A DNA stretch of 64,000 nt from Schlesneria paludicola DSM 18645 (GTDB lineage: Bacteria; Planctomycetota; Planctomycetia; Planctomycetales; Planctomycetaceae). Within the stretch, counting starts at the first letter, position 1, and every line of letters starts with the position of its first letter. Of this stretch, positions 37,894-41,696 are shown piece by piece. A program made the position numbers and the translations under genes. The stretch is taken from the NCBI GenBank assembly GCA_945876035.1, contig CAMCMU010000010.1, forward strand, positions 1 to 64,000, written 5' to 3'. The notes under the pieces are model-generated. The model had not been told where the DNA came from and searched no databases. It worked only from the letters and a program-made list of their open reading frames with translations.

Positions 37894-38013
37894 CTACTTC
37901 TTAGCAGCCTTCTTGGCGGCCTTCTTGGCTGGCGCCTTCTTTGCTGGTGCTGCCTTTGCTGGTGCTGCCTTCGCTGGGGCTGCCTTCTTCGCTGCTGCTT
38001 TCTTCTTGGCCAT
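37894..38013 (-). CDS. 39-residue Lys/Ala/Pro histone-H1-tail-like protein
   Basis: Reading the minus strand from ATG 38013 gives a 39-residue protein of only Met, Ala (19), Lys (15) and Pro (4). It starts MAKKKAAAKKAAPAKAAPAK and ends AAKKAAKK, with a PAKAA-type five-residue period. GGAAGGAG lies eight bases before the ATG, an excellent ribosome binding site, and a strong terminator follows 60 bases after the stop. The composition matches the C-terminal tails of histone H1-like bacterial DNA-binding proteins, so nucleoid binding or compaction is the likely role (inference). Alternative overlapping frames are Arg/Gln-rich and lack a comparable site. Confidence 0.8.
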   Translation of the reverse strand: MAKKKAAAKKAAPAKAAPAKAAPAKKAPAKKAAKKAAKK

Positions 38014-39663: not shown

Positions 39664-40269
39664 GAGGTCGTCTCCTCAATGCCTGTTGATTTTGATGCGT
39701 CGCAGGCGAACAGGCCTCGACACCCCCTCACACGAATAGACTTGTTCCAGTGCATCGACATTCACCTCCCTTGACTGTGATTCCACTCGATTCGGACTCT
39801 CAATTCCGTCACGCCATTTTTCGGGCTCGTCGACTCTGAGCGTCACTCCGCCGTTGCCGCCGCGGCAGGATCTGCCGATTAAGCGAAGATCTTGTTTTTT
39901 CTGCCCGACGACCCCTAGGGAAAACAGGGGGACTGGGTTTGCGTGACGGCAAAAAAAGATGTCACAAAGATCGCCGATCGGTCCTGCCGATGATGGTGTT
40001 GAACAGGAAAATACTGCGAGTGATCTGAGCGGTTGCTTTTTGTCGTAAAGTCTTCACTCGATGTCGTCTTCGATCCTGGACTAACCTCGCTATCGTGTTG
40101 GCGGGAGGCTGAACAAGACGCTTCAAAAAACGAGCTCTCGTTTTTTGATTGAAGTTGGTCCGTTTTTGAGCCGATGAATAATAGACGAGATCGTGTTCTG
40201 CGCGCACCTTGTAAGTTTCCGTGATATTTCATCTGAATCAGACGTTTTGACAGGGACAAGGAAAGATCG
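39664..40269. other. 606-base gap between divergent genes
   Basis: This gap contains the promoter regions of the isomerase (minus) and of the Cys-rich repeat protein (plus). AAGGAAAG lies just before the plus-strand ATG at 40270. No gene is supported; frames on the minus strand are Arg/Ser-rich shadows. Confidence 0.45.
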
Positions 40270-41544
40270 ATGAGACACGCAGGTTGGATGTTCATCGCAG
40301 CGAGTTTGTTGACGCTCGCCAGTGAGACACGAGTCGAAGCCTTCTATTGTGGAGCGGCCAGTGCTCGGTGCTGTCCTTCCGCAGCCTGCGTCCCTTCCGG
40401 TAACTATTGCGCTGCCAAACGCTGCTGTGGCACGCGTTACCAGACAATCCGAGAGACCGTCTACGAACAGCAGACGGTCAACTGTTGCCGAACCGTCTAT
40501 GAGCAATGCACCGAACAGATCCCGGTGACATGCAAACGCAATGTTTATGAAACGTGCTACCGGGACGAGTGCTACACGGTCTGCAAGCCCTGTTACCAGA
40601 CCTGCTACCGCGACGTCTCGTGCACCATCCGCAAGCCCTGTGTCCAGACCTGCTACCGCGATGTGTGTTGTACGATTCGCAAGCCCTGCTACCAAACATG
40701 TCAACGGGAGGTCTGCTGTACGATTTGTAAACCTGTCTACGAAACCAAGTATCGAGACGTCTGCTGTACGACTTATAAGACCGAAACAGAAACGTGCTAT
40801 CGAGACGTTTGCTACACCGTTTGTAATCCGGTGACCGAATCCAAACAGGTCGAGATCTGTACGGGAGACTGGGTCACAGAAGTGACACAAGTTCCAGGCC
40901 CCGTCTGTGCTCAGCCCTCGTCATGCAGCGACAGTTGCACCGCAACCGCCAGCGGATGCTGCCAAACCACTCGAACGATTTGCTGCAGGAAGTGGGTTCC
41001 CCGCGTCGAGATGCGAACGATTTGCTGTACGCGAATGGTGCAGGAAGTCCGCCACTGTCAACAACCCTATACCGTCTGTCGACGAGTCCCCGTGACCTGT
41101 ACGAAGCAGGTTCCCTACACCTGTTGCCGTTACGAGCAGCAAACGATCACGAAGCAAGTTCCCTACACGACCTGCTCATGGACCTGCGAAACGATCACCA
41201 AAAAGGTGCCCTACACGACCTGCTCATGGACCTGCGAAACAATCAGCAAAAAGGTGCCCTACACAACCTGCTCGTGGACCTGCGAAACGATCACCAAAAA
41301 GGTGCCTTACACAACCTGCACGATGACTCAGGAATCTCGGACACGCAAAGTTCCCTATACGACCTGCCGGGAAATTTGTGAGACACACATGGTGACCAAG
41401 ACTCGATGTACTCCCCGTCGAATTCAAGAAACGAAAATTGTCTGCGTTCCTCGAACGATCTGTCGGCGAGTCCCCGTTCCAACCTGCTGTTCGACCGATC
41501 CCTGCGTGAAACCCGGTTGCACGTCTTGCAGCACGGGCGGTTGA
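40270..41544 (+). CDS. Secreted Cys-rich 16-residue-repeat protein, YTV cell-wall-like
   Basis: A 424-residue protein with a signal peptide (1-24, ending RVEA) and about 63 cysteines. Two blocks share an exact 16-residue period. Block A (93-188) has six units such as VQTCYRDVCCTIRKPC. Block B (266-377) has seven units such as PYTTCSWTCETITKKV. Between them lies a linker with CC pairs, and the tail is Cys/Pro-rich. YTV and YTT tripeptides recur at fixed places. This resembles the planctomycete Cys-rich YTV-motif proteins reported as cell-wall components, so extensive disulfide cross-linking in the envelope is likely. AGGAAAG precedes the ATG and a strong terminator follows. Confidence 0.88.
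   Translation: MRHAGWMFIAASLLTLASETRVEAFYCGAASARCCPSAACVPSGNYCAAKRCCGTRYQTIRETVYEQQTVNCCRTVYEQCTEQIPVTCKRNVYETCYRDECYTVCKPCYQTCYRDVSCTIRKPCVQTCYRDVCCTIRKPCYQTCQREVCCTICKPVYETKYRDVCCTTYKTETETCYRDVCYTVCNPVTESKQVEICTGDWVTEVTQVPGPVCAQPSSCSDSCTATASGCCQTTRTICCRKWVPRVEMRTICCTRMVQEVRHCQQPYTVCRRVPVTCTKQVPYTCCRYEQQTITKQVPYTTCSWTCETITKKVPYTTCSWTCETISKKVPYTTCSWTCETITKKVPYTTCTMTQESRTRKVPYTTCREICETHMVTKTRCTPRRIQETKIVCVPRTICRRVPVPTCCSTDPCVKPGCTSCSTGG
40546..40833 (+). repeat. Coding tandem repeat block A, six 48-nt units
   Basis: Six consecutive 48-nt units encode variants of Y-x-T-C-Y-R-D-x-C-x-T-x-x-K-P-C (Cys-rich protein residues 93-188). Units are diverged at DNA level but keep the frame and length exactly, so the periodicity is under protein-level selection. 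Confidence 0.85.
41065..41400 (+). repeat. Coding tandem repeat block B, seven 48-nt units
   Basis: Seven 48-nt units encode PYT-x-C-x11-type repeats (residues 266-377). The three units at 41161-41304 are nearly identical at DNA level, pointing to recent duplication or gene conversion, while the flanking units are diverged. Confidence 0.88.
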
Positions 41545-41577
41545 GCCATCGCATCGGCGACAGCTCCTAATTCTGCG

Positions 41578-41618
41578 AAATGCCGGAGATCTCTGCTCAG
41601 AAGCGATCTCCGGCATTT
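41578..41618 (+). terminator. Rho-independent terminator after the Cys-rich gene
   Basis: A perfect 14-bp stem (41578-41591 with 41605-41618) encloses a 13-base loop and runs into a T-rich tract. It lies 34 bases after the stop of the Cys-rich protein gene. Confidence 0.9.
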
Positions 41619-41696
41619 TTTATTTGTCGGCGCGGCCGTGAGTTTACCGCCGCAACGCGGATCGAGTGGGCTGGTTTGAAAAAAACGGCGCTTCGC

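Follow-up and report, generated by a model that had tools for sequence, protein, structure and literature searches.

Antiparallel pairing of two repeat blocks suggests a long two-stranded beta-ribbon in planctomycete YTV proteins

A cysteine-rich gene with two repeat blocks

The window analysed here, the first 64,000 nucleotides of contig CAMCMU010000010.1 of Schlesneria paludicola DSM 18645, contains a gene for a cysteine-rich protein (hereafter the window protein) built from two blocks of repeats, A and B, that differ in sequence and yet run with the same 16-residue period. Why should two unlike blocks in one protein keep a common period? Our results point to a simple answer: blocks A and B have a common period because they pair with each other.

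The ATG-initiated open reading frame at 40270-41544 on the forward strand, correctly delimited in a preliminary description of this DNA, encodes 424 amino acids, of which 63 are cysteine (14.9%, in line with the approximately 15% estimated there). The gene and its associated elements are:

40258..40265, forward strand: Shine-Dalgarno-like AAGGAAAG, a candidate by sequence reading, 4 nt 5' of the ATG
40270..41544, forward strand: YTV-family protein gene (open reading frame with seven PF07639 stretches)
40270..40341, forward strand: probable signal peptide, residues 1-24 (MRH.../VEA-F), called by eye; a 20-row alignment shows conservation of the start and of the hydrophobic stretch
40342..40431, forward strand: Cys-rich N-terminal head, residues 25-54, conserved in the alignment and outside the long strands in both AlphaFold2 (AF2) models
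41156..41299, forward strand: three tandem 48-bp units, pairwise 44/48 identical at the DNA level
41476..41541, forward strand: Cys-rich C-terminal tail, delimited from the sequence; antiparallel pairing of the blocks would place it at the same ribbon end as the N-terminal head
41577..41619, forward strand: terminator-like hairpin (RNA fold -26.8 kcal/mol, z -4.57), its 3' side leading into a T6 run

The neighbouring genes are ordinary and both lie on the opposite strand, a TIM-barrel gene (AP_endonuc_2) upstream and ribD downstream. No operon partner was seen among them, and the gene stands alone. Consensus scans around the gene listed neither a promoter nor a terminator; the hairpin was found by folding the downstream stretch, and one possible reason why the scan missed it is the scan's loop limit of 8 bases. 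Comparison with two congeners gave a dN/dS of ~0.06 at near-saturation of the synonymous sites (pS 0.64 and 0.71), which indicates purifying selection on the YTV gene. The antisense open reading frame at 40123-40890 was taken as non-coding, being without a Pfam match and opposite a conserved gene. Elsewhere in the window, at 37894-38013 on the reverse strand, a 39-aa Lys/Ala-rich open reading frame resembles the tail of a histone H1-like protein and contains the tandem repeats near 37.9 kb.

The 16-residue period is common to both blocks. Identity autocorrelation at lag 16 was 0.39 over residues 25-424, 0.51 over the block-A stretch and 0.47 over the block-B stretch, above the maxima that 2000 shuffles gave over lags 1 to 59 (0.16, 0.25 and 0.23, respectively); over residues 25-424 the next peaks were at lags 32 and 48. 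The repeats had been called exact, which overstates the case, as roughly one residue in two is identical at lag 16. Similarly, six A units and seven B units had been counted, and profile segmentation finds 7 and 8, a number that depends on the threshold. The recurrence of YTV and YTT tripeptides in register was confirmed, as was the near-identity at the DNA level of three block-B units (44/48 pairwise).

A resemblance to the YTV proteins had also been proposed. A profile search bears this out, with a match to PF07639 (YTV; a model of a 43-residue repeat) at E 2.3e-18 and 66.4 bits, compared to a gathering score of 21, over seven stretches; an NCBIfam profile search with the window protein gave no match. 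Like the window protein, the YTV family is Cys-rich, repeat-built and probably secreted. For the window protein, secretion is suggested by a signal-peptide-like N-terminus that, read by eye, appears conserved in the 20 aligned rows. All 59 genomes of the class that were searched (its own and 58 relatives) contain a match to the window protein, and PF07639 was found in 0 of 14 control genomes. The available text of PMC10632474 gives the family as restricted to Planctomycetia. The window protein is thus a new member of a known family, and the explanation of its fold concerns the whole family. Two other leads were set aside. A PDB sequence search gave four weak matches to RNA-binding domains of hnRNP L or L-like proteins (best E 0.006, residues 178-232), which we regard as chance, and the YTVN domains in the available text of PMC12758564 carry a different name.

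The genome has a second YTV gene on contig C11 (G000:C11:29480-30700), whose product is 34% identical to the window protein and contains 8.7% cysteine, compared to 14.9% in the window protein. About 9 kb from it (L039:1024-2106, forward strand) lies a gene for a Cys-rich protein of 360 aa that appears secreted and carries tandem AAPAANCAPAC repeats; by eye its second half looks HEAT-like, and it is perhaps another wall protein. Among the relatives, L150:585-3146 (forward strand) encodes an 854-aa YTV protein with 20 + 19 units. Counted outward from the loop, its 14- and 16-residue units succeed one another identically in the two blocks; by eye its C-terminus looks frame-disturbed.

Predicted pairing of blocks A and B

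The lengths of the two blocks are locked to each other. In 104 aligned orthologues we measured the anchor distances P85-W201 for block A and P244-P394 for block B. These were 132 and 150 residues in 94 rows, 148 and 166 (+16/+16) in five rows, and 164 and 182 (+32/+32) in one row. The exceptions were the window protein (116 and 150), its sister in genome G009 (100 and 134), one row without the N-terminal anchor and one damaged by an assembly gap. Hence the B distance exceeds the A distance by 18 in 100 of the 102 usable orthologues and by 34 in the window protein and its sister, and every length change in these 102 rows is a whole number of 16-residue units. The loop spacing W201-P244, in contrast, varies from 41 to 75 residues in the 104 rows (41-72 without the gap-damaged row, which has 75). 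Left out were L108 (block B 209), L026 (cut by a contig end) and 15 of the 30 rows L280-L309, duplicates by their last 100 residues. L108 and L159 cover the same region, in which a stretch of unknown bases within the gene, with duplicated sequence on both sides, has inflated block B by 59 residues.

On the tree, parsimony places paired gains in five places (L034; L069; L103; L286; L291 with L302), and perhaps fewer of these are independent because some nodes are weakly supported (0.24 at L069). Fitch parsimony counts seven state changes overall; the other two fall in the window clade, one of them unbalanced. Within the genus, 13 of 15 genomes (its own and G001-G014) have equal unit numbers in the two blocks, the exceptions being the window genome and G009. 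The unit imbalance of the window protein breaks the length rule. The two-block, fixed-period design had been said to merit its own description, yet it is not special to the window protein: both blocks could be measured in 102 of the 104 orthologues (the rest being one partial and one gap-damaged). Variation in the number of block-B units between strains had been suggested; between species, copy number differs little, and in both blocks at once except for the one unbalanced change in the window's clade.

Covariation was calculated as mutual information with APC over the 94 orthologues of canonical block length (Neff 41); since the block lengths are identical, the blocks contain no gaps. The summed z on the antidiagonal i+j=168 was 20.1, with 14.5 and 11.8 on the neighbouring antidiagonals 170 and 166, compared to 2.1 for the best parallel diagonal. 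Shifts by one unit (152 and 184) gave -1.55 and 0.23, and background values were found for every parallel diagonal and for each shift by one or two units that was tested. The signal extends along the blocks, as each of ten sub-windows of rungs had a mean best z of 1.8-4.1 on the ribbon, compared to 0.4-0.9 at shifted positions. Antidiagonals within block A and within block B reached only 3.0 and 2.4 at best. Covariation at separation 2 within a strand was 12.1 in A and 15.4 in B, as expected for beta structure.

Side-chain properties show the same register. Weighted opposite-charge and same-charge pairs were 412:25 on antidiagonal 168 and 557:38 on 170, compared to ratios of 0.2-2.5 on the nine other diagonals checked. 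Prolines occupy a single rung parity (722/722 in A, 1215/1216 in B, and 20/20 in the window protein), as would be expected from beta-sheet geometry if those positions point their backbone NH outward. The orthologue family thus covaries as expected of one antiparallel ribbon with two strands and about 169 rungs, a fold that we hold with high confidence.

The structure models are in agreement with this pattern. For the canonical relative L040, AF2 gave unbroken strands at 56-225 and 250-419 (170 residues each); their end residues sum to 475 both times, which is the covariation register in L040 numbering. For the window protein it gave strands 57-124/132-209 and 234-311/335-402, with pair sums of 459 and 443 around a 16-residue mismatch. 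Confidence was modest in both the window and the L040 model (pLDDT 65.6 and 63.9, pTM 0.29 and 0.28, respectively), and as the alignments given to AF2 were of the same family, the models are no independent test of the covariation. The predicted parts of the ribbon in the window protein are:

40438..40896, forward strand: ribbon strand A (block A), residues 57-209; AF2 strands 57-124 and 132-209, covariation with block B in orthologues
40642..40662, forward strand: break in strand A, residues 125-131, from AF2; one 16-residue A unit fewer than in the 94 canonical orthologues, exact place uncertain
40897..40968, forward strand: tip loop between the strands, residues 210-233, from AF2; length varies among orthologues
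40969..41475, forward strand: ribbon strand B (block B), residues 234-402; AF2 strands 234-311 and 335-402, covariation in orthologues
41203..41271, forward strand: surplus B unit, residues 312-334, outside the strand in AF2 (pLDDT <50 at 304-336), flanked by pair sums of 443 and 459

Scored on the sequence of the window protein alone, charge and Tyr-Pro pairing is also best at sums 459 and 443; the unit-shifted sums 427 and 475 come close, and the best breakpoint falls at 147-152, compared to 125-131 in AF2. By itself, the sequence of the window protein leaves its own register and the place of the bulge unfixed; the family ribbon is well supported.

These results bear on the disulfide-linked superhelix of the preliminary description, taken here to mean that each block would form a separate beta-solenoid or superhelix with one 16-residue coil per turn and disulfides between coils. 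The fixed period and the high cysteine content agree with such a fold, as does a weaker covariation inside the blocks, which was 5.2 in A and 3.3 in B at separation 16, and 4.3 in A and 4.2 in B at separation 32. A solenoid, however, implies a turn in each unit and contacts between successive units. Instead, the canonical L040 model is without turns inside its blocks, the dominant covariation is the antidiagonal from A to B, unit numbers in A and B are coupled, and the prolines keep one register of parity across both blocks. Moreover, in this orthologue group cysteines avoid facing one another in the predicted ribbon (see below), and a relative nearly without cysteine (L147) still has YTV repeats. 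We therefore consider the solenoid very improbable. What stands of the original suggestion is that the common period reflects a common structure.

The pattern was examined in four other YTV clades, where it was clear in two, had a blurred register in one and was not decisive in one. In the paralogue clade, to which the second gene of the genome belongs (24 rows), the antidiagonal reached z 14.1 and the best parallel 2.3, a clear repeat of the antiparallel pattern. It was also clear among the ~760-aa proteins f2-long (30 rows; z 13.8, best parallel 3.2). In this ~760-aa clade (L250-L279), covarying rungs run from 37:750 to 381:400, about 345 rungs, which would correspond to a ribbon of roughly 115 nm. 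Clade f5 (27 rows) gave z 8.3 with a best parallel of 5.0; its register was blurred over 545-550, and its top register value had no charge bias (156:131). In f2-mid (30 rows), the best antidiagonal (7.1) was not above the best parallel (7.4). For these analyses L137 was left out of the paralogue group and L202, L206 and L210 out of f5, identical rows were removed, and the contig-edge rows L248 and L256 were kept.

A further comparison used mirrored 14-residue units, which occur in 18 of 51 distinct non-edge open reading frames, in 15 of them in both blocks (L181, L183 and L207 were unscored; L172 and L176 were kept though poorly segmented). In antiparallel order, the summed overlap over the 15 proteins was 12.48, compared to a shuffle mean of 6.59 and maximum of 10.51 (2000 shuffles). 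Parallel order scored 10.07, because many of the unit series are near-palindromic; as this too is above the shuffle mean, the test alone does not exclude parallel order. By protein, L212, L217, L165 and L175 favoured antiparallel order, the poorly segmented L172 favoured parallel order, and the other ten tied.

Could the covariation be an artefact of repeats, shared ancestry or misalignment? The sequences are both repetitive and related (94 rows at Neff 41), and the parallel diagonal in f2-mid is as strong as its antidiagonal. In the main set, however, an artefact of this kind would have to leave the tested unit shifts and all parallel diagonals at background, and to arise between blocks of identical length without internal gaps. 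Charge pairing and proline parity also fit the register, and AF2 gives the same one, though from the same family. We hold such an artefact to be scarcely credible.

Alternatively, the same antiparallel A-B pairing might form between two molecules, as a strand-exchanged dimer or chain. Covariation is blind to the difference between contacts within a chain and contacts between identical chains, and at the end of a dimer or chain a surplus B unit could be absorbed. Yet the ribbon reaches a loop of sufficient length for a hairpin (~24 residues), and in its single-chain models AF2 forms one. Pairing between molecules thus seems unlikely, and we favour pairing within one chain.

Fold comparison found no solved counterpart among the 50 listed of 172 Foldseek matches to the PDB, which had TM-scores ≤0.20 and rmsd ≥11 A. 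The top matches were the long beta-hairpins of pore formers (lysenin, aerolysin and anthrax protective antigen pores) and the collar of phage phi29, which alone among those 50 passes E 0.001 (E 1.1e-4); the likeness lies in local two-strand geometry. Membership in the pore-forming toxin hairpins was rejected, as there was no global fold match (TM-score ≤0.20 among the same 50 listed). Four BFVD matches at E ≤0.001 were likewise set aside, with TM-scores ≤0.21 among the 50 listed. The best of them was a 606-aa uncultured phage protein (A0A6J5L639, a PA14-containing fragment; E 3.0e-12, 432 columns, TM-score 0.08). The single-layer beta rods formed by the G5-E domains of SasG and Aap reach tens of nm on the surface of staphylococci; they consist of many small domains, compared to the one uninterrupted hairpin predicted here.

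Cysteines and the predicted ribbon

If disulfides stitched the ribbon along itself, cysteines should face each other across it. We looked for positive Cys-Cys association on the register of the main orthologue set and found the opposite. Cysteine was present on both sides in 12 cells and on one side in 4508, and the number of Cys-Cys rungs per molecule was 0.20, compared to 1.48 if columns were independent and 3.29 if placement were random. Four rungs carry a cysteine on either strand, with virtually no molecule having it on both (phi -0.70 to -0.88); at a single rung (17,151), the association was positive (phi 0.25). On other diagonals, the mean Cys association rose to no more than 0.16-0.19 (8-11 pairs), without a clear pattern. 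With the AF2 pairing assumed, the window protein has one Cys-Cys rung, with 26 cysteines in A and 21 in B. Hence the ribbon of the main group is not stitched along itself. Because its cysteines almost never face each other across the ribbon, they more likely bond neighbouring molecules, and such inter-molecule bonds would be the natural reading.

The clades differ in this respect. In the L250-L279 clade, Cys-Cys rungs on the register averaged 0.0 per molecule (30 rows, columns kept). The paralogue clade, in contrast, tolerates such rungs (2.57 observed, 2.97 expected from columns and 1.42 at random); since they are not depleted there, disulfides within the ribbon may exist in that clade. The YTV-like proteins L147 (0.8% Cys; PF07639 E 7.4e-12) and L149 (1.9% Cys) both still segment into A and B units, so the repeats are independent of cysteine. 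Proteins of f2-mid have about 11 cysteines per molecule in paired columns, and with such low-Cys branches as f2-mid and L147, disulfide cross-linking cannot be the job of every member.

A proposed role in the planctomycete wall

We consider it probable that the secreted YTV protein is one very long antiparallel beta-hairpin of A and B strands; these rods would be disulfide-linked to their neighbours in the wall. Our computations support the antiparallel pairing, its register, the locked length in the orthologue family and the avoidance of Cys-Cys rungs; the cross-linking and the strut function are what we infer from them. Blocks A and B would each form a strand, with a short tip loop between them. 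At a rise of 0.33 nm per residue, the canonical ribbon of about 170 rungs would measure about 56 nm. The window protein would have 146 paired rungs and one unpaired B unit, which may bulge or slip to the end. The rods would be exported via the signal peptide and then oxidised; among oxidation genes, the genome has one DsbB match, and a search of it for VKOR found none. Their cysteines would form disulfides with neighbouring rods side by side and through the Cys-rich head and tail, which antiparallel pairing would bring together at the open end of the hairpin. Cross-linked in this way, the rods may contribute to the SDS-resistant, disulfide-stabilised protein wall that has been reported in planctomycetes.

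The assignment to the wall relies on the localisation of YTV proteins in relatives. According to the available text, YTV proteins are main components of Gemmata obscuriglobus walls boiled in SDS (PMC5287468), and in Tuwongella immobilis two of them score highest among the wall proteins (PMC8567305). The wall YTV proteins of these two species and of Rhodopirellula baltica bear the same family name; in the available text of both papers they are treated by proteomics, without structure or strand pairing. Furthermore, a YTV protein is listed in the essential set of Planctopirus limnophila (available text of PMC10632474). Possibly, the same fold serves another job, as a stalk, holdfast, surface layer, or redox or metal buffer. 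Localisation comes from the relatives only, and it can be speculated that Tyr-Cys rungs bind metals, yet the abundance of YTV proteins in the wall preparations of both Gemmata and Tuwongella makes another job doubtful. Protein need not be the only load bearer of a wall, since peptidoglycan has been reported in some planctomycete walls (available text of PMC5287468).

PMC8078820 tabulates a trRosetta model of one YTV protein, D5SU36, built without a template and with a predicted TM-score of 0.59; section 10, which has the table, does not describe the model. Apart from this table entry, we found no description of a YTV ribbon fold in the literature searched; most subscription papers and AlphaFold DB lay outside its scope, and public models may already show the fold. 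A literature search for long hairpins of two strands gave no papers.

Because its length is locked, the ribbon may serve as a strut of fixed size. We lean towards the view that YTV proteins form a separate architectural class of single uninterrupted two-stranded ribbons (~50 nm here and ~115 nm in the longest clade), whose length is locked by the gain or loss of units in matched pairs and which would act as fixed-length struts of a protein sacculus, with cysteines bonding neighbours and not across the ribbon. The construction of the protein part of the planctomycete wall has been a question ever since work of the 1980s reported a protein envelope stabilised by disulfides (cited in the available text of PMC3035269). 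If our reading is true, it would supply a major family of wall proteins with a fold and a register, allow the rod length of each species to be predicted, and name the rungs to be tested. It would also reveal an unusual form of molecular evolution, in which two separate repeat arrays within one gene are forced to change their copy number together.
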